Below the pieces are notes generated by a model, which was not told the origin of the DNA, did not search any database, and saw only the letters and a program-made list of their open reading frames with translations. The translations under genes were made by a program, and so were the position numbers. DNA of 64,000 nucleotides from Pseudomonadota bacterium (GTDB lineage: Bacteria; Pseudomonadota; Alphaproteobacteria; Rhodobacterales; Rhodobacteraceae): the NCBI GenBank assembly GCA_020161615.1, contig JAIUPD010000011.1:124001-188000 (forward strand), in the 5' to 3' direction. Shown here one piece after another: positions 19,177 through 37,520 of the stretch (position 1 is its first letter; every line of letters starts with the position of its first letter).

Positions 19177-20630
19177 GCGTGACCACGGCTCGCCCGGTCC
19201 TCGCCGTCGCCTCGGAATGCGCGCCCCTGGTCAAGACCGGGGGCCTTGCCGATGTCGTGGGCGCGCTGCCCCAGGCGCTGGCGGCCGAAGGCTGGGCCAT
19301 CCGCACCCTGATCCCTGGCTATCCCCGCGTCATGGCCGCCCTGAAAAAGCCCAAGGCGGTGATGGTCCTGCCCGACCTGCTGGGCGTGCCGGCGCGGGTG
19401 CTGGCGGCGCCGGTGGCGGGGCTGGACCTGCTGATCCTCGACGCGCCCGCGCTCTATGACCGCGAGGGTTCGCCCTATCTCGACGCGGCAGGCCATGACT
19501 GGACCGACAACGACCTGCGTTTCGCCGCGCTGGGCAAGGCGGCAGCGCTGATCGCGGCCGGGGGGATCGCCGGCTGGCGGCCCGAACTTCTGCATCTGCA
19601 CGATTGGCAGGCGGGTTTCGCCCCGGTCTATCAGCGGCTTCTGGGCGCGACCCAACCTTCGCTGATGACGATCCACAACATCGCCTTCCACGGGCTGACC
19701 GGCGCCCATCGCCTGACCGCGCTGAAACTGCCGGACGAGGCCTTCACCCTCGACGTGGCCGAGTTCTACGGCCATCTCTCGGCGCTGAAGGCGGGGTTGA
19801 CCGGGGCGACGGCGATCAATACCGTCAGCCCGACCTATGCGCAGGAACTCTGCACACCCGAATTCGGCATGGGGCTGGAGGGGCTGATCCGGGCCCGTGC
19901 CGCCGATATGTCGGGGATCCTGAACGGCATCGACACCCGGAGCTGGGACCCGACCAGCGACCCGCTCATTTCCCCCTTCGCGACCCCCGCCGCCAAGGCG
20001 GCCAATACCCGCGCGCTCAGGGCCGAATTCGGCCTCGCCCCCGCCGAGGGGCCGCTGGCCGTGGTCGTCTCGCGGCTGTCGGACCAGAAGGGGCTGGACC
20101 TGCTGCTGACTGCCCTGCCCGCGCTGGTCGAGAATGGCGGGCAACTGGCGATGCTTGGCTCGGGCGACCGGCGGCTGGAAAACGCCTGGCTCGCCGCCGC
20201 CGCCGCCCATCCCGGCAAGGTGGCTGTCCGCGTGGGCTATGACGAGGCGCTGTCGCACCGGATCTATGCCGGCGCCGATGCGGTGCTGGTGCCCTCGCGG
20301 TTCGAGCCCTGCGGACTGACGCAGATGTACGGGCTGCGCTATGGCGCGGTGCCGGTGGTGGCACGGACCGGCGGGCTGGCCGACACGGTGATTCACGCCA
20401 ATGCCGCGGCGCTGGCCGCGGGCTGCGCCACCGGCATCGTCCACGACCCCCACAGCGCCGAGGCCCTGGCCCAGGCCCTGCGCCAGCTCTGCGCGCTCTG
20501 GGCCGACCGCGCCGTCTTTCGCAAGATCCAGAAGAACGCCATGAAACACCCGGTCGGCTGGGAAGCCAGCGCGCCGCTTTATGCCGCGCTCTACGCCCGC
20601 CTCGCCGCCCTCCCGCAGGAGCCCGCATGA
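19173..20630 (+). CDS. glgA: Glycogen synthase (ADP-glucose dependent)
   Basis: 485 residues, normal GT5 length. The ADP-glucose motif [16 protein letters not shown] is near the N terminus (about residues 20-35), the HDWQAGF segment is conserved, and the C-terminal domain has [17 protein letters not shown]. The ATG at 19173 overlaps the glgC stop (ATGA), and its own stop overlaps glgX in the same way, so the three are translationally coupled. Confidence 0.97.
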
Positions 20631-22708
20631 CCCTGACCATCGAGCGCGGCCGCCACGACCGCATCGGCGCCACTTTCGACGGCGACGGCGTGAATTTCGC
20701 CCTCTTCTCGGAACATGCCACCGCCGTGGACCTGTGCCTCTTCTCGCCCGACGGCATGCGCGAGACGCACCGCCTGCGTCTGCCCGAACGCACGGGTTAT
20801 GTCTGGCACGGCCGCGTCTCGGGCCTGTTTCCCGGGCAGCAATACGGCTACCGCGTGCACGGCCCCTACGCGCCCGAGGAAGGGCACCGCTTCAACGCCA
20901 ACAAGCTGCTGCTCGACCCCTATGCCAAGCGCCTGACCGGGCATCCGCGCTGGTCGGATGCGGTCTTCGGCTACAACCCCGGCGCCAAGACGCAGGATCT
21001 GACCTTCTCGACCCGCGATTCTGCCCGCTTCATGCCGAAATGCGTGGTCGAGGATCCCAGCTTCTATTGGGGCAACGACCGCCCGCCCGCCAAGCCTGCC
21101 AACGAGACGATCATCTACGAGGCGCATGTGAAGGGGCTGACCCAGCTTTCCGGCGTGGTCAATGCGGGCAAGTTCCTGGGTGTGGCCTCGGACCGGATCA
21201 TCGACCATCTGGTCGATCTGGGCGTGACCGCGATCGAACTGCTGCCGGTGCAGAGCTTCCTCAACGACCGCTGGCTGATCGAGAAGAAGCTGACGAATTA
21301 CTGGGGCTATCAGACGCTGGGCTTCTTCGCCCCCGACCCGCGCTATCTGGTCAATGGCCAGATCAACGAATTCCAGCACATGGTCGCGCGCCTCCATGCC
21401 GCCGGGATCGAGGTGATCCTCGATGTGGTCTACAACCACACCTGCGAAGGCTCGGAACTGGGCCCGACGCTCAGCTTCCGCGGCATCGACAACCGCAGCT
21501 ATTACCGCCTCGCCCCCTATCCGCGGCATTACATCAACGACACCGGTTGCGGGAACACGCTGAACCTCGATCATCCCATGGTGCTGAGGATGGTCATGGA
21601 CAGCCTGCGCTATTGGGTCGAGGTGATGCATGTGGACGGCTTCCGCTTCGACCTCGCGTCCACGCTGGCCCGCGACGATGCGGGGTTCCAGCCGAACTCG
21701 GCCTTCTTCGCGGCGATCCGGCAGGACCCGGTGCTGAACCGCGTGAAGCTGATCGCCGAGCCCTGGGACATCGGCCCCGGCGGCTATCAGCTGGGCGCCT
21801 TCCCGCATCCGTTCCACGAATGGAACGACAAGTTTCGCGATGGCGTGCGCCGCTTCTGGCGCCGCGATGCGCGCCCGGCGCCGGAACTCGCCGCCCGGAT
21901 CACCGGCTCCGCCATCCAGTTCGACCATTCCGGCCGCGGCGCAACCAGCTCGATCAACTTCCTGACCGCGCATGACGGCTTCAACCTGATGGATCTGGTC
22001 AGCTACAACCAGAAGAACAACATCGCCAATGGCGAGGACAACCGCGACGGCCATTCCGAGAATTACTCGGACAACATGGGGCACGAGGGGCCGACCGACG
22101 ATCCGCAGATCCTGCAGGCGAGGGCGCTGAGGCGGCGCAACCTGATGGCCACGCTGCTCCTCAGCCAGGGCACGCCGATGATCCTGGCCGGTGACGAGAT
22201 GGGCCACAGCCAGCAGGGCAACAACAACGCCTATTGCCAGGACAGCCCGATCTCCTGGCTGGATTGGGGCAAGATGGATGCCGACATGCTGGCCTTCACC
22301 CGCCGCCTGATCCAGTTCCGCAAGAACCACCCGATCCTGCGCCAGAAGCTGTTCCTGCATTCGAAGGCGCGCTCCTCGGACGGCAAGGCGGATGTCCTCT
22401 GGTGGCACCCCGAGGGGCGGCGCATGACGCCCGCCGATTGGGAGGACCCGGCGCTCAGCCATGTCTGCGTCGAATTGCGCACCGCTTCGGGCACGCCCGC
22501 CTATGCCGATCTGGAAGATGCGATCTTCCTCGTCTTCAACGCGGGCGGGCAGCTTGACGTGACCCTCACCCCCGCCCCCGATGGCAAGGCCTGGTCGCGG
22601 CGCATCAACACCTATGCCCCGACCGCCCCGCATGAGCGGATCCTCTCGGGCAAGCTGGTGGTGCCCGCGCATTCCGTCTCGGCCCTGGTTCTGGAAAACC
22701 TGCGATGA
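20627..22708 (+). CDS. glgX: Glycogen debranching enzyme GlgX
   Basis: 693 residues. An isoamylase-type GH13 enzyme that removes short alpha-1,6 branches left by GlgP. The N-terminal CBM48-like domain is followed by the barrel with EVILDVVYNHTCEGSE, DGFRFDLASTLARDD (nucleophile Asp), KLIAEPWDIGPGGYQ (acid/base Glu) and FLTAHDGF. Coupled by 4-base overlaps with glgA upstream and malQ downstream. Confidence 0.97.
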   Translation: MTLTIERGRHDRIGATFDGDGVNFALFSEHATAVDLCLFSPDGMRETHRLRLPERTGYVWHGRVSGLFPGQQYGYRVHGPYAPEEGHRFNANKLLLDPYAKRLTGHPRWSDAVFGYNPGAKTQDLTFSTRDSARFMPKCVVEDPSFYWGNDRPPAKPANETIIYEAHVKGLTQLSGVVNAGKFLGVASDRIIDHLVDLGVTAIELLPVQSFLNDRWLIEKKLTNYWGYQTLGFFAPDPRYLVNGQINEFQHMVARLHAAGIEVILDVVYNHTCEGSELGPTLSFRGIDNRSYYRLAPYPRHYINDTGCGNTLNLDHPMVLRMVMDSLRYWVEVMHVDGFRFDLASTLARDDAGFQPNSAFFAAIRQDPVLNRVKLIAEPWDIGPGGYQLGAFPHPFHEWNDKFRDGVRRFWRRDARPAPELAARITGSAIQFDHSGRGATSSINFLTAHDGFNLMDLVSYNQKNNIANGEDNRDGHSENYSDNMGHEGPTDDPQILQARALRRRNLMATLLLSQGTPMILAGDEMGHSQQGNNNAYCQDSPISWLDWGKMDADMLAFTRRLIQFRKNHPILRQKLFLHSKARSSDGKADVLWWHPEGRRMTPADWEDPALSHVCVELRTASGTPAYADLEDAIFLVFNAGGQLDVTLTPAPDGKAWSRRINTYAPTAPHERILSGKLVVPAHSVSALVLENLR

Positions 22709-24537
22709 GCGACCTGGACGATGCCTGCCGCGCCCTTGGCCTGATCTGGGTCTACCGCGATGGCGCTGGCCGGATGCAGGAGGCGCCCGAGGAAAGCCGC
22801 CGCGCCGTGCTGGCGGCGCTGGGCCAGGGCAATGCCGAAGCCGCGCTGCCCGTGGCGCTGCAACGCTCGACCTCGCGGGCCATTCCGGCGGGCGCGCCGA
22901 CCGATTGGGGGCCGGGCCCCTGGGTGATCCTGACCGAGGACGGTGGCGAGATCCGGGGCGAAGGTCCGCTGCCCGCCCTGCCGATGGGCTATCACCGCAT
23001 CCTGCATCAGGGCTGGACCGTGCACCTGCTGGCCGAACCCCCGCGCCTGCCGATGCCGCCCCGCCGATGGGGCGTGACCCTGCCGCTCTTTGCGCTGTGG
23101 GAGGGGGCCGAGGCCGGGATGGGCACCTATCCGCAACTCGGCGCGCTGGCCGAAGGGCTGGCGGGCCACGGTGCCGCCTTCCTCGGCATCAATCCGATCC
23201 ATGCGGGCTTTCCCGCCGATCCCGGCAATTACTCGCCCTACGCCCCCTCGCACCGCCGCCGCCTGAACACGATGCATGTGGAAACCGGGCTGAAACTGCC
23301 CGAAAGCGGCGCGCTGATCGATTACGCCCGCGCCATCCGCGCCCAGCGCGCGGCGCTGGAAGAGGCCTTTGCCGAGTTCCACGGCGATCCCGATTTCGAG
23401 GCCTGGCGCGGCGAGGGCGGCGCGGCGCTGGAGGAATTCGTCACCCATCAGGCGCTGAGCGAGGTGCACGGCGCCTATTGGGGCGGCTGGCCGCTGGCCT
23501 ATCAGGACCCCCGCAGCGCCGAGGTTCAGACCTTCGCGCGCGAGCGCTGGCAGCGGCTGCGGTTCCACGCCTGGGCTCAATGGCAGGCCGAGATGCAGCT
23601 GCACGACGCACAGATCCGCGCCCGCTCGGCCGGGATGAACTTCGGGCTCTATCTGGATATCGCCGTGGGCACCCATCCCCATGGGGCCGAGACCTGGGCC
23701 GAGCGCGGCTCCTTCGCACAGGGCGTCAGCCTCGGCGCACCGCCCGATCTGCTGGGTCCCTCCGGCCAGCGCTGGGGCCTGGCACCGCTGCGCCCCGATG
23801 TGCTGCGCGCCACCGGCTACGCGGCCTTTGCCCAGACACTCCGCGCCCAGCTCAAATTCTGCGGGCTGCTCAGGATCGACCATATCCTCGGCCTCGAACG
23901 CAGTTTCTGGCTGCCCGACGGCTTGCCCGGCCTCTATGTCACCATGCCGCGTGAGGAGCTGCTGGCCGTCCTCAGGATCGAGGCGACGCGCGCCGGGGCC
24001 TCGGTCATCGGCGAGGATCTGGGCACCATCCCCGAGGGGCTCAGGGCCGCGCTCGACGCCTCGGGCGTGATGGGCTGCCGGGTGGCGATGTTCGAACGGG
24101 ATTGGGAGGGCACCCGCGATTTCCTGCCGCCCGAGGCTTATACGCCGACCGCGCTGGCCTCCTGGGCGACGCATGACCTGCCGACCTGGGCCGGCTGGCG
24201 CCAGGGCCGCGACATCGACTGGCGCGCGCAACTGGGCGAGGTCCCCGACGAACCCGCCGCGCGCGCGGCCCGCGCCGCCGAGGTCGCGGCCTTCGACGCG
24301 CTTTCGGGCGGGTCGGACCTTTCGGCCATGCACCGCCACCTCGCCCGCACCGCGAGCCATCTGGTCGCCGTCCAGGGCGAGGATCTGGCGGGCGCCGTCG
24401 AGCAGGCTAACTTGCCCGGTACGATCTACGAACACCCGAATTGGTGTCGCCGCCTGCCTTTGCCGCTGTCGGGCCTCATTTCCGCCCCGAGCCTCGACCA
24501 GACCGGCGCCATCATGGCCGAAGCCGGAAGGACCTGA
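22705..24537 (+). CDS. malQ: 4-alpha-glucanotransferase (amylomaltase)
   Basis: 610 residues, within the GH77 range. Transfers maltooligosaccharide units, recycling short chains freed by GlgX. Motifs: NPIHAGFPADPGNYSPYAPSHRR, GLLRIDHILGLERSFWLPDG (nucleophile Asp region), VIGEDLGTIPEGLR (acid/base Glu) and SWATHDLPTWAGW. The N-terminal 80 residues form an extra domain seen in proteobacterial MalQ. Overlaps glgX by 4 bases; pgm starts 3 bases after its stop. Confidence 0.94.
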   Translation: MSDLDDACRALGLIWVYRDGAGRMQEAPEESRRAVLAALGQGNAEAALPVALQRSTSRAIPAGAPTDWGPGPWVILTEDGGEIRGEGPLPALPMGYHRILHQGWTVHLLAEPPRLPMPPRRWGVTLPLFALWEGAEAGMGTYPQLGALAEGLAGHGAAFLGINPIHAGFPADPGNYSPYAPSHRRRLNTMHVETGLKLPESGALIDYARAIRAQRAALEEAFAEFHGDPDFEAWRGEGGAALEEFVTHQALSEVHGAYWGGWPLAYQDPRSAEVQTFARERWQRLRFHAWAQWQAEMQLHDAQIRARSAGMNFGLYLDIAVGTHPHGAETWAERGSFAQGVSLGAPPDLLGPSGQRWGLAPLRPDVLRATGYAAFAQTLRAQLKFCGLLRIDHILGLERSFWLPDGLPGLYVTMPREELLAVLRIEATRAGASVIGEDLGTIPEGLRAALDASGVMGCRVAMFERDWEGTRDFLPPEAYTPTALASWATHDLPTWAGWRQGRDIDWRAQLGEVPDEPAARAARAAEVAAFDALSGGSDLSAMHRHLARTASHLVAVQGEDLAGAVEQANLPGTIYEHPNWCRRLPLPLSGLISAPSLDQTGAIMAEAGRT

Positions 24538-26169
<1,632 letters not shown>

Positions 26170-26356: not shown

Positions 26357-26671
26357 TCAGACCGCCGGCACCCTGACCACGATCCCGTCGATCTGCGGCG
26401 CCATTTCCAGCTGGCAGGAGAGCCGCGAGCAACCCAGCCGCGGGGCGTCGGTCGCGTCGAGCATCGCCTCCTCGAAATCCGAGGGGGTGCCGGCCGCGTC
26501 CTGCCAGCCCTCCTCGACATAGACATGGCAGGTGGCGCAGCTCATCGTGCCGCCGCATTCGCCGATGATCCCGGGCACATTGCCGGCAACCGCCGCTTCC
26601 ATCAGCGACAGGCCGGGCTTGACCTCCAGCGCGATCTCGCGCCCGTCGGGCAGGATCCAGGTGGCTTTCAT
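26357..26671 (-). CDS. [2Fe-2S] ferredoxin, putidaredoxin type
   Basis: 104 residues, the length of adrenodoxin/putidaredoxin-type ferredoxins. Cluster cysteines are C39, C45 and C48 in ECGGTMSCATC, and C86 in SRLSCQ; C81 is extra. It ends with the common C-terminal VVRVPAV-like segment. It lies 10 bases after a glutamine-synthetase-like gene in an operon headed by a cytochrome P450 and probably delivers electrons to that P450. No ferredoxin reductase gene is present here, so one must be supplied elsewhere. Confidence 0.93.
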   Translation of the reverse strand: MKATWILPDGREIALEVKPGLSLMEAAVAGNVPGIIGECGGTMSCATCHVYVEEGWQDAAGTPSDFEEAMLDATDAPRLGCSRLSCQLEMAPQIDGIVVRVPAV

Positions 26672-26681
26672 CGCGTCCCCC

Positions 26682-27974
26682 TCAAACGAACCAGATGGCG
26701 AAATCGCGGGCGCCCTCGGGCGTCATGTCCCTGGTCTTGTCGACCTCGACCCGCTTCATATGGATGTGGTGGGCGCAATACTCGGCCCCCATCGCCGCGA
26801 CCAGCGCGCCATCCGCCTCCAGGTCGTCCAGCGCCCCAGTCAGCGTTTCGGCCACGCCGTATTCCGCGCTCTGGCCCGTGAAGCAATCGCCGGTCTCGGC
26901 CGGCGGCAGCGGATAGCCCTGTTCGTAGCCCAGAAGTGCCGCCTGCAGGACAGCGGCGACGGCCGCGTAGGGATTGGCCGAGGCATCGGCCATCCGGTGT
27001 TCCAGCCGCGCCTTCTTGCCGCCCTCGCCCGAGACGCGGGTGGTGACGCCGCGGTGATCCTCGCCCCAGTTGCACCAGAAGCCGGACATGGTGGCGGGCT
27101 GCAGCCGGGCGTAGGAATTGACCGACGGCGCGATCAGCCCGGCCAGCCCCTTGTGGTGCTTCATCCAGCCCGCAACGCAGCCCCGCATCAGGTCGTTCAT
27201 CGCCGCGATCCCGCCTGTCTCGCCAGTGGCGAAGGCGTTGTTGCCCGCCTTGTCGGCGAAGCTGAGGTTGATATGCATGCCCGAGCCGCCGCGGTCAAAG
27301 AAGGGTTTCGGCAGGAAGGTCAGGATGACCCCCTTGCGATAGGCGACCTCGCGGGCGAGTTGGCGGAACATCACCATCTCGTCCACCGCATCCAGCGCCT
27401 CCTCGAAGGCGAGGGTGAATTCGTATTGCGGCGTGTCGTATTCGGTGGTGACCAGTTCCAGCCGGAAGCCCGCGGCCTCGGCCGTTTCCCAGATGGCATC
27501 GGTGAAGCCCAGGGGATCGTTGAAAGGCCCGCCGCCATAGACATGCCCGCCCGGCACGTCATAGGGCGTGAGGCTGCCATCCTCGGCCCGGGTGAAGGCG
27601 AAGGCCTCCAGTTCCAGCCCGACCTTGGGGGTCAGCCCGTGCTTCTTCCAGCCGGCGATCGCCGCTTTCAGCGTGGCGCGGCCGGCGATCGGGATCAGCC
27701 GGTCGTGGCGGTCATAGAGGTCGCCCGTGACCATATGCACGCCCGGCTCCCAGCCCGGGCGGATGTCGGGGGCGTCCCAGCGCAATTCCATGTCGGGCAG
27801 CCCCTCCAGACAGGCGGTGCCGGGCGCATCGACGATCAGGTCCTTGTCGTAATGGACGGCAAAACAGGGCTGGGCGAAACGGGTCGCCCCCGCGCCGATC
27901 TTTTCCTGCGGCAGGTACTTGCCCCGCAGGATCGAGAGGTGATCGCACCAGACGGGGCGAAGGCGGTCGCGCAT
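26682..27974 (-). CDS. Glutamine-synthetase-like gamma-glutamyl-amine ligase
   Basis: 430 residues. C-terminal glutamine synthetase fold: ELEAFAF metal Glu region, GGSGMHINLSFADKAGN (metal His), PSVNSYARLQP, and EHRMADASANPYAAVAAVLQA with the usual Arg/Glu. Sequence features place it with PuuA/IpuC/AtdA1-type ligases, which join glutamate to amines using ATP, and not with housekeeping GlnA (no adenylylation-loop tyrosine motif seen). GGGAG precedes the ATG. Lies 82 bases after the P450 gene and 10 before the ferredoxin gene. The amine substrate is unknown. Confidence 0.88.
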   Translation of the reverse strand: MRDRLRPVWCDHLSILRGKYLPQEKIGAGATRFAQPCFAVHYDKDLIVDAPGTACLEGLPDMELRWDAPDIRPGWEPGVHMVTGDLYDRHDRLIPIAGRATLKAAIAGWKKHGLTPKVGLELEAFAFTRAEDGSLTPYDVPGGHVYGGGPFNDPLGFTDAIWETAEAAGFRLELVTTEYDTPQYEFTLAFEEALDAVDEMVMFRQLAREVAYRKGVILTFLPKPFFDRGGSGMHINLSFADKAGNNAFATGETGGIAAMNDLMRGCVAGWMKHHKGLAGLIAPSVNSYARLQPATMSGFWCNWGEDHRGVTTRVSGEGGKKARLEHRMADASANPYAAVAAVLQAALLGYEQGYPLPPAETGDCFTGQSAEYGVAETLTGALDDLEADGALVAAMGAEYCAHHIHMKRVEVDKTRDMTPEGARDFAIWFV

Positions 27975-28056
27975 ATCGTTAACTCCCTGTTTGTCTTATC
28001 GTCGCGGCTCCGGGGTTCGTTACGCCCCGGGCGCGCGTTTCGTGGATCTTTGTCTT

Positions 28057-29313
28057 TCAGGCGCGGGTCACATGGACCGGCAATTCCTTGATCCCGCCCA
28101 CGAAATTCGAGCGCAGGAATTTCTGCGGTCCCGCCGGCTCGATCCCCCTGATCCGCCGGGCCAGTTCCTGAAACAGTACCCGCACCTCCAGCCGCGCCAG
28201 ATGCATGCCCAGGCACAGATGCGGCCCCCCCTGCCCGAAGCTCAGATGCCGGTTCGGGGTCCGTGCCAGATTGACGCGGAACGGATCCTCGAAGACCGCC
28301 TCGTCCCGGTTGCCGCTGATGAACCAGTAAAGCACCTTGTCGCCCGCCCGGATCGTCTTGTCATGCATCTCATGGTCCCGCGTGGCGGTGCGGCGGAAAT
28401 AGAGCGCGGGCGTGGCCCAGCGGATGATCTCGTCGGGCGCCGTGTCCCAGATCGCGCCCTCCTGCATCTGGCCCAGCAGTTCCGGCTGATGCGCCATCGC
28501 CTGGATGCCGGCGGCGATGGAATAGCGCGTGGTGTCGTTCCCGGCCGCGACCAGCAGGCAGAAGAAGTTGCGGAATTCGGTTTCCGAGATGGTGCTGCCA
28601 TCGGGACCCGGTTGCAAGATCAGATGCAGCACGCCCTCGGTATCGCCGCGCGCCGCCTTGTCGGCCATCAATTGCTTTGCGTAGTCATAGAGTTCCGCAC
28701 CGGCGGGCGAGTTGAAGGGCATGAGCCGATAGGCATCGGTCGTCATGCGGTCCAGCACGTGATCGGTGAAATCGGGGTCGGTATTGGCGATGAGCGCATC
28801 GCCCTTTTCCACCAGCCAGGGCAGATCCGCATCCGGCGTGCCGATGATCCGGCCCAGCATGCGCATCGGCAATTGCCGGGCGATGGCCTTGGTGGCGTCG
28901 AACGTGCCCTGCTCCAGCGCCTCGTCCAGGATCTCGTCGCAGAGGTCGCGGATCTGGCCCTCGAACCCGGCGACAACCGGCTTGGAAAAGGCCTTGGCGA
29001 CCTTGACCCGGGTCATCGAATGCTCGGGCGGGTCGGTTTCCTGAAAGGTACGCCGGGCCAGATATTCCTCGTAGCTCTGATCCTCCATGCGGATCCCCCG
29101 GGCCGAGGACATCAGATCCGCCTGCCGGTTCAGCGCCAGGATATCCTCGTTGCGGGTGACCGACCAGAAGCCCTGCCCGCCGTCCCACTCCGTCCAGGAC
29201 AGAGGATCCTCGCGCCGGAGGCGGGCAAATGTGTTGTGCGGCGGGCCGTCCGTGAAGGTGTCGTGCGAGGTCAGATCGGCGTGTCCGTCGTCGGTCGGTG
29301 TCCAGATGGTCAT
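28057..29313 (-). CDS. Cytochrome P450, soluble bacterial class
   Basis: 418 residues, no membrane anchor. The I-helix oxygen-activation motif is AGNDTTR (about 257-263), the K-helix ExxR is EIIR (295-298) and the heme loop is FGQGGPHLCLG with Cys367. The heme loop has one residue more than the common FGxGxHxC form, as in CYP124/125-type P450s. The start at 29311-29313 follows AGGAG; the longer open frame runs into the divergent amidotransferase. It heads the operon with the gamma-glutamyl ligase and ferredoxin. Substrate unknown; an amine or its gamma-glutamyl derivative is inferred. Confidence 0.95.
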   Translation of the reverse strand: MTIWTPTDDGHADLTSHDTFTDGPPHNTFARLRREDPLSWTEWDGGQGFWSVTRNEDILALNRQADLMSSARGIRMEDQSYEEYLARRTFQETDPPEHSMTRVKVAKAFSKPVVAGFEGQIRDLCDEILDEALEQGTFDATKAIARQLPMRMLGRIIGTPDADLPWLVEKGDALIANTDPDFTDHVLDRMTTDAYRLMPFNSPAGAELYDYAKQLMADKAARGDTEGVLHLILQPGPDGSTISETEFRNFFCLLVAAGNDTTRYSIAAGIQAMAHQPELLGQMQEGAIWDTAPDEIIRWATPALYFRRTATRDHEMHDKTIRAGDKVLYWFISGNRDEAVFEDPFRVNLARTPNRHLSFGQGGPHLCLGMHLARLEVRVLFQELARRIRGIEPAGPQKFLRSNFVGGIKELPVHVTRA

Positions 29314-29383
29314 GCGACTCTCCTTGAATGCCCCGCCCAATATGTATATTATTGGACTTGCAACGTATGCAAATGGAAAATTC
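29314..29383. promoter_or_regulatory. Divergent promoter region of P450 and amidotransferase genes
   Basis: Only 70 bases separate the two starts, and they are far richer in A+T than the genes around them. TATGTATATTATTGG (29341-29355) and ACGTATGCAAAT (29363-29374) resemble the TGTATAC-like core found upstream of the nearby GntR gene (30946-30954). Shared control of both transcripts is likely; the exact operator is uncertain. Confidence 0.4.
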
Positions 29384-30094
29384 ATGCATATCGCCTTTCT
29401 GGACACCAACATCGACCGATCCGCGCTGGCCGCCCGCCATCCCGGCGAGGTGGACAAGTTCCGCACCCTGATGGGACCGGCGGCCCCCGGCTGGACCTAT
29501 GCCGATTTTCGCGTGACCGAAGGGCATTTTCCCGCGGCGCTGGCAGGGTTCGACGGGGTGATGATCTCGGGCAGCCCGGCCTCGGTCAACGATCCGACGC
29601 CCTGGATGGCGCGGCTGGAGGCGGTGATCCGCGAGGCGGTCGCGCAGGGCGTGCCCGTCTTCGGCGCCTGCCTCGGCCATCAGGCGGTGGCCAAGGCGCT
29701 GGGCGGCCGGGTCGGGCGCAATCCACAGGGCTGGGTGCTGGGCCGTGTCGAAAGCCGGATCCACGACCCCGCCCCCTGGATGGCGGGCGCCGGGCCCCGG
29801 ATCGCCCTGCATGCCGCGCATAACGAACAAGTGCTGACCCTGCCCCCGACCGCCCGGGTTCTGGGCGGGACGGACGCCACGCCCTATGGCCACCTGGCCT
29901 ATGGCGCGCGGGTCTTCACCACCCAGTACCACCCGGAACTGACGCGGGATTTCATGCTGGATCTGGTGGGCGAAATGACCCCGGGCCTCGATGCCGCCAT
30001 CGCCCGCACCGCGCGGGAATCGCTCGCCGCCCCCGTGGACGACGCCCGGATGGCGCGTTGGATCGCCGCTTTCTTCCACCAGGCGCGGGGCTGA
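29384..30094 (+). CDS. Class I glutamine amidotransferase-like hydrolase
   Basis: 236 residues, a single GATase-1 domain with no synthetase partner. Nucleophile Cys96 in FGACLGHQAVAKALGG, and His183/Glu185 in TTQYHPEL complete the triad. Free-standing proteins of this type include AtdA2/TdnT of aniline degradation, which acts with a glutamine-synthetase-like partner. It is divergent from the P450 operon that contains such a partner and may hydrolyse a gamma-glutamyl amide. The ATG at 29384 is chosen because the upstream part is antisense to the P450 gene. Confidence 0.9.
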   Translation: MHIAFLDTNIDRSALAARHPGEVDKFRTLMGPAAPGWTYADFRVTEGHFPAALAGFDGVMISGSPASVNDPTPWMARLEAVIREAVAQGVPVFGACLGHQAVAKALGGRVGRNPQGWVLGRVESRIHDPAPWMAGAGPRIALHAAHNEQVLTLPPTARVLGGTDATPYGHLAYGARVFTTQYHPELTRDFMLDLVGEMTPGLDAAIARTARESLAAPVDDARMARWIAAFFHQARG

Positions 30095-30268
30095 GGCGGG
30101 CCAAGCGTCGACGTGAAGCACGGCCCGCGCGCGAAAGCGCAAGGGCCGATCCCGCCACCTGTTGCCGAGAGCGCAAGGGGATGTCGCCTGGGGGGCCGCG
30201 CCGACACGGATCGCCGCGCCCGTCCGGCGGCGGACCGCCCCCTCACAACAGGAACGCGGGCAGCGCCC

Positions 30269-30919
30269 CTAGCCCAGCGCCGCCAGCAGATCCATGGCCG
30301 TGACCTGATCGAACTGCACATGCTGGCGCATTGCCGCCTCGGCGGCCTCGGAATCGCGCGCGACGATCAGCCCGGCAATCGCCCGGTGATCGCGGGCCGA
30401 GGCCTCGATCGATCCCGCATAGCGATAGCGCGCCCGGTAATAGGCCATCAATTTCCGCGCGTTGGTCTTGATCATGTCCAGCAGGAACGGATTGCCCGCG
30501 CTCTCCGCCACCGCGGCATGGAAGCGCAGGTTCAACTGGTAATAGGCATCGGGCTCGGCCTCGCCCCGGGTGGCGAAATGCGCCTCGCAGGCCGCCGTCG
30601 CCTCCTCCAGCGCCGCGGCCCCCGACGCCGAAAGCCGCCGCGCCGCCAGCCCCGCCGCCTGCCCCTCGAGCTTGGCATGAACCTCGAGGATCGCCAGGAA
30701 TTCGGTCAGCGTCGGCTTGAACACGACCGCGCCCTTGCGCGGCAGGCGGCGCACCAGCCCGGTCGCCTCGATCTGCATCAAGGCCTCGCGCACCGGGGTG
30801 CGCGAGACGCCGAAATGCTGGACCAGCGCCGCTTCCTCGATCTCGTCGCCGGGGTTGAGGCGGCCTGTGTCGATCCAGTCATGCAGCGTCCGCAGGATGG
30901 TTTCCGTCTGGCTGGCCAT
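30269..30919 (-). CDS. GntR-family regulator (FadR/FCD subfamily)
   Basis: 216 residues. N-terminal winged helix (EIEEAALVQHFGVSRTPVREALMQIEATGLV) followed by the all-helical FCD effector domain with the metal-binding His and Asp pattern (FHAAVAESAGNPFLLD, then a late DHRAIAGLI). FCD regulators usually bind organic acids or amino-acid-like effectors. It is convergent with the amidotransferase gene and is the obvious candidate regulator of the P450 cluster. The ATG at 30917-30919 is preferred over an upstream GTG at 30926-30928. Confidence 0.92.
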   Translation of the reverse strand: MASQTETILRTLHDWIDTGRLNPGDEIEEAALVQHFGVSRTPVREALMQIEATGLVRRLPRKGAVVFKPTLTEFLAILEVHAKLEGQAAGLAARRLSASGAAALEEATAACEAHFATRGEAEPDAYYQLNLRFHAAVAESAGNPFLLDMIKTNARKLMAYYRARYRYAGSIEASARDHRAIAGLIVARDSEAAEAAMRQHVQFDQVTAMDLLAALG

Positions 30920-30945
30920 GAAATGCACCCCGGGTTGAGGCTATC

Positions 30946-30954
30946 CGTATACAC
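30946..30954. promoter_or_regulatory. Possible GntR autoregulatory site (CGTATACAC)
   Basis: GTATAC palindrome 27 bases upstream of the gntR start, in a form common for FCD-GntR operators. A related TGTATA core is found between the P450 and amidotransferase genes. Short motif, so chance occurrence is possible. Confidence 0.3.
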
Positions 30955-31035
30955 ACCGCGGCGTCCTTTGTGCAATCCCGGACCCGCTCCTGCCCCCTTG
31001 CGCCGCCCCCCGCGCTTGGTTATTGCTGCGCCCAC

Positions 31036-31125
31036 GGACAGTTGGCCGAGTGGTCGAAGGCGCACGCCTGGAAAGTGTGTAGGCGGGGAACCGTCTCGAG
31101 GGTTCGAATCCCTCACTGTCCGCCA
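31036..31125 (+). tRNA. tRNA-Ser (anticodon GGA), CCA encoded
   Basis: 90 bases, class II. Acceptor stem GGACAGT/ACTGTCC, D-arm TGGCCGAGTGG, anticodon stem CACGC/GTGTG with loop CTGGAAA (anticodon GGA), a long variable arm, GTTCGAATC T-loop, discriminator G and CCA. Base composition drops just downstream, where the exopolysaccharide segment begins, so this tRNA may mark its border. Confidence 0.97.
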
Positions 31126-31506
31126 TTTACCCTCGCGAAAGCGTTCTCTCGATCTGGCTACGAGCGGATTTTCCCCTTGTTTTCGAGTGTTATGCGGGAC
31201 GTATTGTTGAGCGGTCCCGGTGCCAAGAGCCTCGGAAGCAGTACCTCAGGGCCGACACTCTCCGGAACTATTGACTTGGCGGACCAAGGTTTAGCCTTCG
31301 CGAGCCTTTGAATCATTAATCTCTAAATCAACGCGAAGCTGTTGACTTCGAGGACAGCGGCGGCGGCCTGAGACGGAACGGCAATCGAGCCTTCACCGAC
31401 GAGGCGACACCTCACTGTCGCTCCGCCGCGTGGCACTTGACCTCACCCCCGGGGAGCAGCGCGGATAAGGTTGGCAACCAACCACCTGTCTGTCTTTGAT
31501 CGGCGC
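31126..31506. other. Non-coding stretch after tRNA-Ser
   Basis: 380 bases without a supportable gene. Composition is clearly less GC-rich than the backbone, and the short open frames have no recognisable product. A 10-base copy of the tRNA 3' region (CCTCACTGTC) recurs at 31410-31419 but is too short to call an attachment site. It is the far end of the exopolysaccharide segment and may contain remnants. Confidence 0.4.
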
Positions 31507-32574
31507 TCAGAGTCCGACTTCTTCTTTTCCTGGTGGCTCTGCTGCAGCTTTGACCGTGCGTGCCATCACCAGTTGCCACGTATCGGCCCAATGCGTCGAA
31601 AAGGCATGCAGCGCCTCAGGACTATGAGCCGGGTGTCCACCGAAGACCTCATCGATATGCAGGCACATCTGATACACCTTCCGCGACTTCTGTCGTGCCC
31701 ATTGCGTGGGATCCGTCATCACCACGGGCTGAATGCCGCGCGCGTAGCTCTCGATGATCTTCGATGGCGAACTGTAGATCAGCCGCGCAGTCGAGATCGG
31801 CAATAGTACGGATTCACACTTTGAAAAGATCCGGTCAGTATCTTCGTTCCGCCAAGGGAACACGACCTCGAGGTCCGGCAAATCCGGGTCGGGCAGGTCT
31901 ATATCCCGCGAGGTTGCAATCAAGACGCGAACACCACGCTCCTTTGCCTGTTCGAAGAAATGTGGAAAGCCATCCCGCATCCACTGGCTCTCGATATTGC
32001 CGATGATGCCAATGGTATGAGTGCTTGATCGCGAAAGCTTCGTAGGTTGCTCTCGGCCCTTGATCGGCAACGGCACATAATGGGTTCGGGCTCTGATAGC
32101 CCGGCTTGACGGAGCGTGGTCGGCGAAAGCTTCATCAATTACGAAGATATTGCCGACGGACCGCTTGACGATCCACGACGCCAGATAGAACGGCAGCCAC
32201 CAGAACCACCAGTTCCGGGTGACGTACTTCAAGCAACCGGGATAACTGTCCATGATCCACAAATCGCAAGGGATGCGATGGCGCGCAAAAGTCGCGATGG
32301 CGAACAACTGCGACAGGGACCCGTTTAAATTCAACAAGCCCCGGTCGAAGGTTCCCTTCGCCAGCAGTTTGCCAAGTGTGCGGGCGTCCTGCAGCGTCTG
32401 CCGCAGGCTCCGAGCGTTCTCGAACAGCACCTTAACTTCCGCGCCGCTGTCGCGATAGCGGGCGGCAAGCTCACCGCTGGGATGCGAGCGCTCTGGAGAA
32501 ACACAACTGACAAACAGCAGCTTCCGCGGCTTTCCTGTGTCGTTGTCACCGGTTGAGGGGTTTCGATCAGTCAT
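31507..32574 (-). CDS. Probable GT-B glycosyltransferase of the EPS cluster
   Basis: 355 residues from the ATG at 32572-32574; an ATG at 32578-32580 adds two residues. Either start overlaps the manB stop. N-terminal KLLFVSCVSPERSHPSG and the C-terminal YSSPSKIIESYARGIQPVV are typical of GT-B donor-domain folds (GT4-like). No membrane anchor. It is last in the GDP-fucose operon, so it may transfer a GDP-linked sugar, but donor and acceptor are unknown. The longer open frame upstream is antisense to manB. Confidence 0.65.
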   Translation of the reverse strand: MTDRNPSTGDNDTGKPRKLLFVSCVSPERSHPSGELAARYRDSGAEVKVLFENARSLRQTLQDARTLGKLLAKGTFDRGLLNLNGSLSQLFAIATFARHRIPCDLWIMDSYPGCLKYVTRNWWFWWLPFYLASWIVKRSVGNIFVIDEAFADHAPSSRAIRARTHYVPLPIKGREQPTKLSRSSTHTIGIIGNIESQWMRDGFPHFFEQAKERGVRVLIATSRDIDLPDPDLPDLEVVFPWRNEDTDRIFSKCESVLLPISTARLIYSSPSKIIESYARGIQPVVMTDPTQWARQKSRKVYQMCLHIDEVFGGHPAHSPEALHAFSTHWADTWQLVMARTVKAAAEPPGKEEVGL

Positions 32575-33940
32575 CGGCATCCAGGAGTGTTCGCAGGTCC
32601 CCGATTTTTTCAGCGAGCAGAGTCGCATCGCCGCGCGTTTCGACGTTGAGCCGAAGCAACGGTTCGGTATTCGACCCACGCAGGTTGAAACGCCAGCGGT
32701 CGAACGACAGCGAAAGCCCATCGGTGTCGTCACGGGCGACGGATTTCGGGGCAAGTGCGGTCTCGACACGGGCGATTGATGCAGGCATGTCGGCGACACG
32801 GAAGTTGATCTCGCCCGATGACGGGAAGGCGGCGCGGCGAGCATCGACCAGGTCGGCCAGCTTGGCCCCGCGGCGGCTCATCAGATCGAGCACAAGAAGC
32901 CACGGAATCATTCCCGAATCGCAAGCCATGAAATCGCGGAAATAGTGGTGCGCCGACATTTCGCCGCCGTAGACTGCGCCGGTCTCTCGCATCACCTGCT
33001 TCACGAAGGCGTGGCCGGTGCGCGATTGCACGGGCTGGCCGCCAAGGCGGGTGACGATTTCCTGCGTGTTCCAGACGATGCGCGGATCGTGCACGATTTT
33101 CGCACCGGGTTCGCGAGCCAGAAACGCCTCCGCGAGCAGGCCGACAACATATTCGCCGGGAATGAACCGACCAGCACCATCGAACAGGAAACACCGATCG
33201 AAATCACCATCCCACGCAATACCGATATCAGCACCATTGGAGCGTACGGCCGTTGCCGTAACGGGCTGATTTTCCTCCAGCAGCGGGTTCGGAATGCCGT
33301 TGGGGAAGCGTCCATCGGGTTCGTGATGCATCCGAACGACTTCGAGGGCCGCGCCGCGAGATCGTAACTCAGCCAGCAAGGCATCAAAGGTCGGGCCTGC
33401 CGCGCCATTTCCAGCGTTGACGAGCAATTTCAGCGGGCGCAAGGCGTCCACGTCGATGAATGACAGCACGCAGTCCACATAAGCCGATCGCACCCCTTCG
33501 GAGGGCACAATCTTTCCAGGTTGCAGCGCGGCGTCAAACGTATTGGCTTCGGCGAGTTCCCTGACACGGGCTAGATCCGTTGCGGGATCCAGCGGAGCCG
33601 AACCGGCCTTCACCATCTTCATCCCGTTGTAGTCTATCGGGTTGTGCGAGGCAGTCACGCAGATGCCGCCATCAGCCCCAAGATGGCTGGTTGCGAAATA
33701 CATTTCTTCGGTGCCGGACAGGCCAAGGTCAAGCACTGCGACCCCTTGAGACGTGAGCCCTTCGGCCACTGCGGCGGCCAAGCTCTCCGACGAAGCTCGC
33801 ACATCGCGCCCCAGAACAACCCGCTGGGCGCCAAGGGCCACGGCAAAGCCAGCGCCAATTCGCCGCGCGATGCCCTCGTCAAGATCGACGCCAAGACGGC
33901 CGCGAATGTCATAGGCCTTGAAGCAGGTCAGCGATGTCAT
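32567..33940 (-). CDS. manB: Phosphomannomutase (ManB/CpsG type)
   Basis: 457 residues. Converts mannose-6-phosphate to mannose-1-phosphate for GDP-mannose. N-terminal FKAYDIRG, active-site serine in ICVTASHNPIDYNGMK, metal loop IAWDGDFDRCF, sugar loop GGEMSAHHYFRDF, and C-terminal LRGSNTEPLLRLN. Overlaps manC by 4 bases. Base composition is lower in GC than the flanking backbone. Confidence 0.95.
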   Translation of the reverse strand: MTSLTCFKAYDIRGRLGVDLDEGIARRIGAGFAVALGAQRVVLGRDVRASSESLAAAVAEGLTSQGVAVLDLGLSGTEEMYFATSHLGADGGICVTASHNPIDYNGMKMVKAGSAPLDPATDLARVRELAEANTFDAALQPGKIVPSEGVRSAYVDCVLSFIDVDALRPLKLLVNAGNGAAGPTFDALLAELRSRGAALEVVRMHHEPDGRFPNGIPNPLLEENQPVTATAVRSNGADIGIAWDGDFDRCFLFDGAGRFIPGEYVVGLLAEAFLAREPGAKIVHDPRIVWNTQEIVTRLGGQPVQSRTGHAFVKQVMRETGAVYGGEMSAHHYFRDFMACDSGMIPWLLVLDLMSRRGAKLADLVDARRAAFPSSGEINFRVADMPASIARVETALAPKSVARDDTDGLSLSFDRWRFNLRGSNTEPLLRLNVETRGDATLLAEKIGDLRTLLDADD

Positions 33941-35370
33941 CCCTTCGCTCCCTGACCGCGTGCATAGACGTCCTCGTACCGGATGATGTCGTCTTCTCCG
34001 AGATAGGACCCCGTCTGCACTTCGATCAGCACCATGGGAACCTTCCCTGGATTCTTCATCCGGTGCTTTTCACCGAGCGGAATGTAAACCGACTGGTTCT
34101 CGCTCACGAGCTTCACTTCGTCGCCGATTGTAATCTCGGCGGTACCGGAGACCACAATCCAGTGTTCAGCCCGATGATGGTGACTTTGCAGGCTGAGGGC
34201 CGCCCCAGGGTGGACGTGAATGCGTTTCACCTGAAAACGGTCGCCGATGACCAGGCTTTCGAACCAACCCCAGGGACGGTGATCGACGGGAAAGCTCTCG
34301 GCCTGCCGCGCGCTTTTTGCCTTCAGCGCCGCCACCGCCTTCTTCACCTCCTGCGCTCGAGAGGCGTCGGCCACCAGCACGGCGTCAGGCATGGCCACGG
34401 CGATGATGTTTTCGAGGCCCAGCCCCACCAGTTCCACCCTATCGTCTTCAGAGCGCAGAAGGGTGTTCCGGCAGTCGATGGCGACGACATGCCCGGCGGT
34501 GGAAACGCCCGCCGCGTCCGGTCCACTTTCCCGCCAAACGGCGTCCCAGCCGCCCAGGTCGGACCAGCCCGCAGAGAAGGGCACCACGACAAGATTGTCC
34601 GCCCGTTCCATGACTGCGTAGTCGATCGAGACATTCTCGGCCGCGCTCCAAGCTTCCGGCTCAAGACGCAGGAAGCCGAGGTCGAGGGTAGCATCTGCCA
34701 GCGCCTGCTCCACAGGCTTCATGAGGTCAGGTGCATGGGCAGCGAACGCGGCCTTCATCGTCGCCACGGAGAAAAGGAAAATGCCCGCATTCCACAAGTG
34801 CCGCCCCGACGCGATCATCTCCTCCGCCCGGGTGGTATCCGGCTTCTCGACGAAGCGGACAAGTTCGATTGCCCGCCCACCGTCGCCGGGGGCATCGGCA
34901 AGCTCAAGGTAGCCATAGCCCGTTTCTGCATGAGTAGGAGTAATCCCGAACGTCACGATCTTACCGGCCTGCGCCGCCTGGACACCCGTCTCGACCGCCG
35001 CACGGAAGGCTGCGGCGTCGGGCACCACATGGTCCGACGGCGCCACCAGCATCAGGGCATCCGGATCCTGCCGTTCAAGCCACAATGCCGCCGCGAGGAT
35101 TGCGGGCCCGGTGTTGCGCATCTCGGGTTCGATCAGGATCGCGCCCGGCCTGATGCCGACCTCGGCCAGTTGCTCGGTGACGATAAAGCGGAAATCGGCA
35201 TTCGTCAGAACAAGCGGCGGCGCATAGCCTGGCCCGCTCAATCGCCGCGCCGAGGCTTTGAAGAGGGTTTCCTCCCCGACCAGCGGAACGAACTGCTTCG
35301 GGTATGACTTTCGTGACAAGGGCCACAACCGCGTGCCGGAGCCGCCGGAGAGCAGAACAGGAGTGATCAT
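33937..35370 (-). CDS. manC: Mannose-1-phosphate guanylyltransferase / mannose-6-phosphate isomerase
   Basis: 477 residues, a two-domain protein. The N-terminal nucleotidyltransferase has LLSGGSGTRLWPLSRKSYPKQF and FVEKPD; the C-terminal type II isomerase cupin carries RPWGWFESL, VHPGAALSLQSHHHRAEHW and ENQSVYIPLGEKHRMKNPG. Makes GDP-mannose, the precursor for Gmd. It ends 4 bases inside manB and follows fcl by 58 bases. Confidence 0.96.
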   Translation of the reverse strand: MITPVLLSGGSGTRLWPLSRKSYPKQFVPLVGEETLFKASARRLSGPGYAPPLVLTNADFRFIVTEQLAEVGIRPGAILIEPEMRNTGPAILAAALWLERQDPDALMLVAPSDHVVPDAAAFRAAVETGVQAAQAGKIVTFGITPTHAETGYGYLELADAPGDGGRAIELVRFVEKPDTTRAEEMIASGRHLWNAGIFLFSVATMKAAFAAHAPDLMKPVEQALADATLDLGFLRLEPEAWSAAENVSIDYAVMERADNLVVVPFSAGWSDLGGWDAVWRESGPDAAGVSTAGHVVAIDCRNTLLRSEDDRVELVGLGLENIIAVAMPDAVLVADASRAQEVKKAVAALKAKSARQAESFPVDHRPWGWFESLVIGDRFQVKRIHVHPGAALSLQSHHHRAEHWIVVSGTAEITIGDEVKLVSENQSVYIPLGEKHRMKNPGKVPMVLIEVQTGSYLGEDDIIRYEDVYARGQGAKG

Positions 35371-35428
35371 GTCAATTCCTTGGTAATCGAAATGTAAGTG
35401 TCAGGACACGTTTCTGCAGACAGGCCGC

Positions 35429-36388
35429 CTATTTCATCCGCAGGCCGACTTCGCCCTGATCGAGGAACCATGCATAGGTGCTCTCGATCCCCGTCTCCAG
35501 CGCGATCGTCGCCTCCCAGCCGAGACGGGACAGTCGACTGACATCCATCAGTTTCCTGGGGGTGCCATCTGGCTTGGTCGCGTCAAAGGTGAGACGCCCT
35601 TTGAAGCCGGTCACGCGGGCAACGGTTTCAGCAAGCTCGCGGATGGTCACATCGGTGCCGGTGCCCACATTGATATGGCTCAACATAGGCTGAACCTCGC
35701 GCGCAAGAATCTCGCGGTTGAGATCGAGCACGAAGAGACAAGCGTCAGCCATATCATCCACATGCAGGAATTCCCGCATCGGCGTACCGGACCCCCAGAC
35801 CACCACCTCGTCAATCCCGGCGCGCGCCGCTTCGTGAAACCGGCGGATGAGCGCGGGCAAGACGTGCGAGTTCTCCGGGTGGAAATTGTCACCCGGACCG
35901 TAAAGGTTGGTTGGCATCACAGAGCGGTAGTCGGTTCCATACTGCCGGTTGTAGCTCTCGCAAAGCTTGATGCCCGCAATCTTGGCGATGGCATAGGGCT
36001 CGTTGGTGCTTTCCAGCAACCCTGTCAGCAAAGCATCCTCCCGCATCGGCTGGGGCGCCAGACGCGGGTAAATGCAGGAAGAGCCCAGGAATAGAAGCTT
36101 CTGAACCCCAGCTTCGTAGGCTTGGTGGATAATGTTCGCTTCCATCATCAGGTTATCATAGATGAACTCGGCCGGATAGGCGTTGTTGGCATGAATGCCA
36201 CCCACCTTGGCCGCAGCGATGATCACCCGATCTGGCCTTTCGCTTTGCATGAAATCGCGCACTGCCGCCTGATCGATAAGGTCGAGCTCGGCATGCGTTC
36301 GGGTCAGGGTTTCCTGTCCTCGATCCTTGAGCTTCTGCAAAATGGCACCACCGACCATTCCGCGGTGACCTGCAACATACGTCCTCAT
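35429..36388 (-). CDS. fcl: GDP-L-fucose synthase
   Basis: 319 residues, an SDR epimerase/reductase. Cofactor motif [12 protein letters not shown] at the N terminus, [13 protein letters not shown], and the catalytic Tyr-Lys pair in [17 protein letters not shown]. Converts the GDP-4-keto-6-deoxymannose made by Gmd to GDP-L-fucose. Starts 10 bases after the gmd stop. Confidence 0.95.
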
Positions 36389-36398
36389 CGCGAATCCC

Positions 36399-37520
36399 TT
36401 AATTGTCGATCGAAACCGGCAACTCCAACCCGTGCGCTTTCAGAAGTGCATGCCGCTTAGCGGATTTCAGGTCTTCGGATACCATCTCCGCGCACATTTC
36501 ACGCGCGGTGATGTGCGGCTCCCAGTCGAGTTGCTTCTTCGCTTTGGCCGGATCGCCCAGCAAGGTCTCAACCTCTGCCGGGCGGAAATACCGCGGATCG
36601 ATCCGCACGATCACATCGCCGGGCTTCACCTCGGGCGCTTTGTCCCCGGAAACCGCTTCAACGATACCGACCTCATCAATGCCTTCGCCCGCGAACCGCA
36701 GGGTAATCCCCAGCTCTTCGGCTGACCAATTAATGAACTCGCGCACCGAATACTGGACACCGGTCGCGATCACGTAATCCTCCGGCTGCTCCTGTTGCAG
36801 CATCAGCCATTGCATTCGGACGTAATCCTTCGCATGGCCCCAATCGCGCTTGGCGTCGATATTGCCCATGAACAAGCAATCTTCCAGGCCTTGTGCAATA
36901 TTAGCCAAACCGCGTGTGATCTTGCGCGTCACAAATGTCTCGCCGCGACGCGGGCTCTCGTGGTTGAACAGAATGCCGTTGCAGGCATACATGCCATACG
37001 CCTCCCGGTAGTTTACCGTGATCCAATAGGAATAGAGCTTGGCCACCGCATAGGGGCTACGCGGATAGAAAGGCGTGGTTTCTCGCTGCGGCATTTCCTG
37101 AACCAAGCCGAACAACTCGGAGGTCGACGCCTGATAGAACCGGGTCTTTTGATCCAGGCCGAGGAAGCGAATCGCTTCCAGCAGCCGAAGCGTGCCGAGA
37201 GCATCGACGTCAGCGGTATATTCGGGGCTTTCGAAGCTGACAGCCACGTGGCTCTGGGCGCCGAGGTTGTAAATCTCGCAAGGTTCGACTTCGCGAATGA
37301 TCCGCGTCAGGTTTGAGGTATCGCTCAGATCGCCGTAATGCAGCTTGAGCTTCGGGTTTGGTGTATGCGGATCCTGATAGATGTGGTCGATCCGCTGGGT
37401 ATTAAAGAGCGAGGCGCGCCGCTTGATGCCATGAACTTCATAGCCTTTATCGAGCAGAAACTCAGCAAGGTACGAGCCATCTTGTCCCGTGATGCCTGTA
37501 ATGAGTGCACGTTTTGTCAT
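36399..37520 (-). CDS. gmd: GDP-mannose 4,6-dehydratase
   Basis: 373 residues, full length. NADP motif [16 protein letters not shown] at the N terminus, STSELFG catalytic region, and the [19 protein letters not shown] active-site Tyr/Lys. First enzyme of GDP-L-fucose synthesis from GDP-mannose; its genomic partner fcl is directly downstream. About 150 bases upstream separate it from a hypothetical gene of the same strand. Confidence 0.97.

Follow-up and report, generated by a model that had tools for sequence, protein, structure and literature searches.

A conserved cytochrome P450, ligase and amidotransferase module in Rhodobacteraceae and its proposed role in feeding arylethylamines into homoprotocatechuate breakdown

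The stretch of DNA analysed here (the window) comprises 64,000 nucleotides from a member of the Rhodobacteraceae (assembly GCA_020161615.1, contig JAIUPD010000011.1, positions 124,001 to 188,000), and our subject is a cluster of five genes within it that is built around a cytochrome P450. Three of these genes lie on the minus strand and are transcribed in the order P450 (28057..29313, 418 amino acids (aa), PF00067), glutamine synthetase (GS)-like ligase (26682..27974, 430 aa, PF00120 at 237.6 bits) and [2Fe-2S] ferredoxin (26357..26671, 104 aa, PF00111 at 38.8 bits), with intergenic gaps of 82 and 10 bp. A class I glutamine-amidotransferase-like protein (29384..30094, 236 aa, PF00117 at 63.3 bits) is encoded divergently on the plus strand, and the 70 bp that separate it from the P450 start (29314..29383) are read from the sequence as a divergent promoter region. 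A GntR/FCD transcriptional regulator (30269..30928, 219 aa, PF07729 at 92.9 bits and PF00392 at 62.2 bits) follows on the minus strand. There is no ferredoxin reductase gene in the cluster. The starts of the P450 and the amidotransferase were set by judgement at MTIWTP and MHIAFL, with spacing and neighbouring relatives as the guide; the mechanical open reading frame (ORF) calls begin further upstream, and the Pfam scans of these two proteins were made with that overhang. An earlier reading of this DNA (the sequence-only reading) had described the P450, GS-like and ferredoxin genes as one operon flanked by a divergent amidotransferase gene and an adjacent GntR/FCD gene, and the Pfam matches, shared minus strand and short gaps bear this layout out.

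What the GS-like protein does is central to any reading of the cluster. It scores under the cut-off of all five NCBIfam models that it matches. We placed it in a 32-row tree together with GlnA, GlnT, the aniline-type protein of plasmid pI2 and IpuC (represented by the protein of Arthrobacter aurescens TC1), where it falls within a 100/100 clade of module proteins that stands apart from all four, in a tree where several branches are long and the deep forks are weak. The pI2 protein, whose record says "glutamine synthetase family protein" and which we take to be DcaQ, groups 100/100 with a paralogue of the window protein encoded in the source genome (L138). Grouping with GlnA, which the sequence-only reading had named as a refutation, is not seen; nor was a place beside the aniline-type protein or IpuC recovered. 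In the alignment the metal-site Glu and His residues are kept, and the loop Glu of GlnA is replaced, as it is in the other non-GlnA rows: a Glu in the VPGYE column is found only in the two GlnA rows of the 32. By tree and alignment, the protein thus has the marks of a gamma-glutamyl organic amide synthetase, lying apart from GlnA and lacking its loop Glu. A class of GS-like synthetases that ligate organic amines rather than ammonia is described in the portion of PMC11335346 that we consulted, and we propose that the window protein is a putative gamma-glutamyl amine ligase.

The amidotransferase-like protein has as its best match in the Protein Data Bank (PDB) gamma-glutamyl peptidase 1 (9k7i, E 4.3e-17), and its Cys96, His183 and Glu185, which make up a Cys-His-Glu triad, are invariant across nine aligned rows. 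We propose it as a candidate gamma-glutamyl hydrolase. Taken together, the clade and residues of the GS-like protein and the triad and PDB match of the amidotransferase fit a pair of enzymes of which the first attaches a tag to an amine and the second takes it off again. Sequence divergence among relatives is much faster in the amidotransferase than in the P450; at most clade-1 loci, for example, identity to the window protein is 38-52% for the former vs 75-84% for the latter. The ferredoxin matches TIGR02007 at 42.8 bits, under the cut-off of 132.1, and is the proposed electron donor of the P450. The P450 itself has CYP125MRCA and CYP124 as its best PDB sequence matches, and its alignment contains many invariant residues, including C367 and A257-G258-x-D260-T261-T262. 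A CYP125/CYP124-type sequence, as far as such resemblance goes, is silent on the substrate and on the site of oxidation. Scanning named genomes by pattern gave 439 confirmed relatives; among the 80 of these that were listed, the closest P450 is that of Pararhodobacter aggregans, at 98% identity, and the source genome is accordingly taken to be probably that of a Pararhodobacter. A scan of viral contigs with the P450 returned no relative.

We asked how widely this arrangement is conserved using a sample of 394 Rhodobacteraceae genomes, about one per genus and mutually related. A P450 match at E <= 1e-90 is present in 72 of them, with identities of 48-87% apart from the window itself. Neighbourhoods were compared at 70 loci, which omit the window's own genome and one genome with a fragment at a contig end (G166), and several of which are themselves broken off at contig ends (e.g. 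L065, L097, L098, L108 and L109). Within 4 kb of the P450, a GS-like gene lies at 68/70 loci (67 of them downstream on the same strand) and an amidotransferase gene at 66/70 (54 divergent, nine upstream and three downstream on the same strand). The ferredoxin is found at 35 loci, 34 times downstream on the same strand and once as a weak match on the opposite strand, and the GntR gene at 37. Because of these counts, we regard P450, GS and amidotransferase as a conserved core, which ferredoxin and regulator accompany in about half of the cases. The sequence-only reading's idea of a module that joins a P450 to a ligase-like protein and an amidotransferase resembling gamma-glutamyl hydrolase is therefore upheld by the tree, the kept residues and the 70 loci, and a conserved neighbourhood, whose absence it had named as a refutation, does exist in relatives. 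Relatives of the module occur in Ruegeria sp. TM1040, among named examples, and Novosphingobium sp. EMRT-2 has a P450 that is 59% identical and has different neighbours.

The same pairing of genes bears on the possibility that the GS-like protein makes glutamine and that its link with the P450 is accidental. GS-domain proteins are common, occurring at eight places in the source genome, but the protein there that groups with GlnA is another one (L132), the window protein is without the GlnA loop Glu, and GS and P450 genes are neighbours at nearly every locus. We set this explanation aside as extremely improbable.

The divergent region contains, on the minus strand, the hexamers TTTGCA (29373-29368) and TAATAT (29351-29346) with a 16-nt spacer. 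This hexamer-N16-hexamer arrangement recurs in relatives, being present in 28 of 56 regions, and a longer pattern, composed after inspection of the regions, is present in 25 of the 56 vs a shuffled mean of 0.02.

Some loci depart from the common layout. At L053, where the genes are rearranged, a P450 of the window's clade is accompanied by a GS of another clade on the opposite strand. On plasmids of Sagittula stellata (L003) and Novosphingobium humi (L018), P450s of 38-40% identity lie with a GS of a different clade, the former annotated as GS-amidotransferase-P450; this second GS-P450 arrangement perhaps represents a second gamma-glutamyl/P450 pathway. Distant GS-P450 pairs in Streptomyces canus (L013) and Novosphingobium EMRT-2 (L002) lie beside an extradiol-type dioxygenase (ring-opening by annotation or match) and also adjoin genes for an HpaE-like dehydrogenase (under cut-off), an FAH-family protein and an acetoacetate-decarboxylase-like protein. 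No amidotransferase was recognised near these two pairs.

The sequence-only reading knew of no characterised system with this set of enzymes. There is one: the Ipu route of Pseudomonas sp. KIE171 and A. aurescens TC1, in which, according to the part of PMC6776027 available to us, ligation by IpuC is followed by a multicomponent P450 that converts gamma-glutamyl-isopropylamide to gamma-glutamyl-L-alaninol, and then by a postulated amidotransferase for release of glutamate. On plasmid pTC1 the genes for amidotransferase, P450, ferredoxin and ferredoxin reductase, and ipuC, follow one another directly. The principle of glutamylating, oxidising and deglutamylating an amine is therefore already known from Ipu, and P450 genes of the PipA type, which have neighbouring GS genes in Gulosibacter (PMC9477822, in the part consulted), point the same way. 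The window cluster resembles Ipu in its enzyme types and differs from it in descent and setting: identity to the TC1 proteins is low (P450 26%, GS 28%, amidotransferase 27%), IpuC of TC1 lies outside the clade of the window's ligase, which is thus not an IpuC orthologue, the window cluster has a P450 and a ferredoxin and lacks the reductase gene of pTC1, and Ipu is linked to alaninol genes whereas the window module is linked to Hpa, transaminase and aromatic decarboxylase genes. Plain orthology with Ipu is rejected by the identities of 26-28% and by the GS tree. The piperidine and morpholine clusters (PipA, MorA), compared by description only, share amine catabolism, a P450 with a redox partner and an adjoining GS gene; in the sections of PMC9477822 that we consulted, that GS is read as serving ammonium assimilation and an amidotransferase is not mentioned.

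Aniline-type systems (Atd, Tdn, Dca) also bring a GS-like ligase and an amidotransferase-like protein together with an oxygenase in a single cluster (PMC11335346, in the part consulted; plasmid pI2), and the sequence-only reading had inferred an Atd-like pathway in which a P450 replaces the Rieske dioxygenase. Its tagging principle stands. Its aniline-like chemistry is not supported, as the GS clades are apart, the oxygenase differs in kind (Rieske dioxygenase there, P450 here, with no match to a Rieske family among the five cluster proteins), and the neighbourhoods, in which no aniline-specific genes were recognised, contain homoprotocatechuate and aromatic decarboxylase genes and so point to arylethylamines. 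We accordingly set aside an Atd-type aniline pathway, in view of the separation of the GS from the pI2 protein and the missing Rieske protein, and regard an Atd-like route as very unlikely.

Recurrent neighbours of the module were counted over 78 loci (the 70 fetched loci, seven plasmid loci and the window) from ORFs clustered by single linkage. Some picked ORFs are over-extended or out of frame, and at four loci (L054, L083, L100 and L114) no P450 ORF was picked, though tblastn found the gene. A class III aminotransferase cluster, which mixes the transaminase with a phospholyase-like protein (c3), is the neighbour at 44/78 loci, followed by a transporter binding protein (37/78), aldehyde dehydrogenases including HpaE (36/78, mixed in cluster c7), an IclR regulator (31/78) and a pyridoxal-phosphate-dependent decarboxylase cluster (12/78). 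Genes of the Hpa pathway of 4-hydroxyphenylacetate breakdown also lie near the module, HpaD and HpaH at six loci each and HpaF at five. Two more clusters (at seven and five loci) we take to be genes of the homogentisate pathway. At one locus (L115), HpaD (410.8 bits, cut-off 321.4) and HpaE (749.1, cut-off 638.35) both score above curated cut-offs, HpaH falls just under its own (342.0 vs 351.5) and HpaF and HpaG fall well under theirs. The first 16 PDB matches of the decarboxylase at this locus are DOPA, tyrosine, aromatic-amino-acid, histidine and tryptophan decarboxylases and related aldehyde synthases, and the aminotransferase that recurs near the module has omega-transaminases as its best matches. 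Members of the uncharacterised family UPF0261 (Tm-1-like), to which the protein at 18074-19309 of L126 belongs, lie near the module at 17/78 loci, a recurrence that we offer as a clue to a role in aromatic amine breakdown.

Co-occurrence with the Hpa pathway was counted over the same 394 genomes. HpaD, the homoprotocatechuate dioxygenase, scores above its cut-off in 63/72 genomes with the P450 vs 58/322 without it (odds ratio 31.9, p 3e-29). The control paaA, a marker of general aromatic catabolism, is itself associated, being present in 56/72 vs 138/322 (odds ratio 4.7), and the association between HpaD and P450 persists within paaA-positive (odds ratio 14.5) and paaA-negative (92) genomes. 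The two genes also lie close together more often than expected: of the 63 genomes, 7, 11 and 12 have HpaD no further than 10, 17 and 25 kb from the P450, against expectations of 0.3, 0.5 and 0.8, in a test that takes genome size as 4 Mb and was applied once the proximity had been noticed. These results help to weigh a further explanation, namely that the module acts on a cyclic or short aliphatic amine, like those of Ipu or piperidine/morpholine breakdown, and that the Hpa link is an effect of catabolic gene islands. Ipu agrees with the module in its enzyme types and in the logic of their order, and PipA-type P450 genes adjoin GS genes, as the consulted parts of the papers cited above relate; but the proteins are distant from those of TC1, the GS does not group with IpuC, and the odds ratio for HpaD is far above that for paaA and survives stratification by it. 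We consider such a substrate improbable.

An omega-transaminase relative is present in 69/72 P450-positive genomes and also in 46/58 genomes with HpaD and no P450, the two groups that these counts cover, which ties it to the Hpa branch rather than specifically to the P450. In 20 HpaD regions chosen from the 58 P450-negative genomes, the transaminase is often clustered with Hpa genes and a decarboxylase is found in five; at least half of these regions were picked for a known nearby transaminase, and they serve as illustration and not as a frequency estimate. Our reading is that catechol amines, dopamine for example, have a core route made up of transaminase, aldehyde dehydrogenase and Hpa genes, into which the P450 module feeds from a non-catechol amine such as tyramine.

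The source genome has the parts of such a core. On contig C1, at 23.1-33.3 kb, are genes for a transaminase (81% identity), IclR, TctC-TctB-TctA, an aldehyde dehydrogenase, a phospholyase-like class III protein, an APH-type kinase and UPF0261, the last three (29841-33302, in L126) following the transporter and aldehyde dehydrogenase genes. At 43.3-48.8 kb of the same contig lie HpaH, HpaG, HpaD (above cut-off), HpaE and HpaF, HpaD and HpaE being separated by a LigB-type protein, and contig C5 carries a homologue (57%) of the aromatic decarboxylase. HpaB has no match in this genome (PF03241, E <= 1e-20).

We propose that the cluster is a module that would glutamylate, hydroxylate and deglutamylate an arylethylamine and so feed the Hpa pathway, a reading that, judged from gene content and sequence relationships, we hold to be slightly more probable than its negation. 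The GS-like ligase would use ATP to couple the amino group of a tyramine-like compound with L-glutamate; the P450, supplied by the ferredoxin and a reductase encoded elsewhere, would hydroxylate the aromatic ring of the gamma-glutamyl amide; and the amidotransferase-like hydrolase would release glutamate and a dopamine-like catechol amine. The class III omega-transaminase and aldehyde dehydrogenase would then convert this amine to homoprotocatechuate (3,4-dihydroxyphenylacetate), which HpaD, HpaE and other Hpa enzymes would degrade, and the GntR protein would regulate the module. We infer which amine is used, that the P450 hydroxylates its ring, in what order the steps run, that a reductase is supplied from elsewhere and what the regulator senses. 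The module itself is real and conserved, probably catabolic, and Ipu-like in its working. Arylethylamines with flow into homoprotocatechuate are the best-supported substrate class, and the single reaction that we predict as most likely is hydroxylation of gamma-glutamyl-tyramine on its ring. The wiring of the module to Hpa, decarboxylase and transaminase genes looks new. In a literature search, we recognised neither P450 oxidation of gamma-glutamyl-tyramine or gamma-glutamyl-dopamine nor this cluster in the titles and abstract openings among the matches listed, in which few subscription journals are represented.

The same module and substrate class could instead be served by another P450 reaction, either hydroxylation at the benzylic (beta) position, giving an octopamine-like amine, or removal of the O- or N-methyl group from methoxylated or N-methylated phenethylamines. 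The oxidation site cannot be read from the P450 sequence, and the phospholyase-like protein on contig C1, whose best PDB match is the phospholyase 5g4i (395 bits) followed by ethanolamine-phosphate phospho-lyase, sits beside the APH-type kinase in a pair that would suit amino alcohols; a route for amino alcohols such as octopamine is possible for these two enzymes. Against this, the APH cluster was picked up at only 4/78 loci, and the genes associated with the module are those of catechol ring cleavage. HpaBC adds the second ring hydroxyl to the free acid, and HpaB, the usual source of that hydroxyl, has no match in 52 of the 63 genomes with both HpaD and P450. We see these other reactions as unlikely, though worth bearing in mind. 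Under ring hydroxylation, the second hydroxyl would come from the P450 acting on the glutamylated amine, and this is where the proposed route differs from the Hpa pathway, relatives of whose HpaD, HpaE, HpaF, HpaG and HpaH occur in the source genome and, in certain relatives, next to the module.

Several observations weigh against a feed into homoprotocatechuate. In the source genome the Hpa genes are on another contig than the P450. HpaD over the cut-off is missing in nine of the 72 P450-positive genomes, six of which (G003, G095, G110, G241, G352 and G373) are 99-100% complete, the others being 92% (G155) and below 90% (G166 and G181) complete. The transaminase, as described, is frequent in HpaD-positive genomes that have no P450. 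paa genes lie near the P450 at 7/78 loci, so another end route is possible. The Fisher and binomial values ignore kinship, and since the genomes are related, the p-values overstate the strength of the association. Finally, HpaB is not rarer where the P450 is present: it is found in 11/63 P450-positive vs 11/58 P450-negative genomes among those with HpaD, with no match in 47 of the latter, and the prediction that the P450 replaces HpaB failed. Uptake of dopamine or DOPA would fit as a source of homoprotocatechuate in HpaD-positive genomes that have neither HpaB nor P450.

More tentatively, and with rather less confidence than an even chance would warrant, we suggest a tyrosine/tyramine route in Rhodobacteraceae in which the P450 makes gamma-glutamyl-dopamine and dopamine is a true catabolic intermediate. 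Glutamate would here be a reusable tag, serving as a handle for the P450 and a mask for the amine until the catechol is made, and the module would plug into a core of decarboxylase, transaminase, aldehyde dehydrogenase and Hpa enzymes that also exists without it.

The remaining surroundings of the cluster are of other kinds. A tRNA-Ser gene (31036-31125) lies beside the GntR gene, and beyond it, up to 37520, are sugar-nucleotide genes (PMM/PGM, ManC-like, epimerase and GDP-mannose dehydratase) in a stretch of lower G+C (0.56-0.64 in 2-kb steps); this segment (31036-37520) was perhaps acquired. On the other side, at 19101-26169, genes of starch-synthase and isoamylase type lie with those for 4-alpha-glucanotransferase and phosphoglucomutase, an ordinary group for glycogen metabolism.

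If the proposal is true, the strategy of tagging with glutamate, oxidising and untagging, known from isopropylamine and anilines, would also be a native route for aromatic biogenic amines, with P450 relatives in 72 of the 394 Rhodobacteraceae genomes. Genomes without HpaB would then have a source of homoprotocatechuate, the uncharacterised family UPF0261 would be set in the context of a pathway, and a P450 subfamily that is as yet uncharacterised would acquire a function and offer a candidate biocatalyst for catechol amines.

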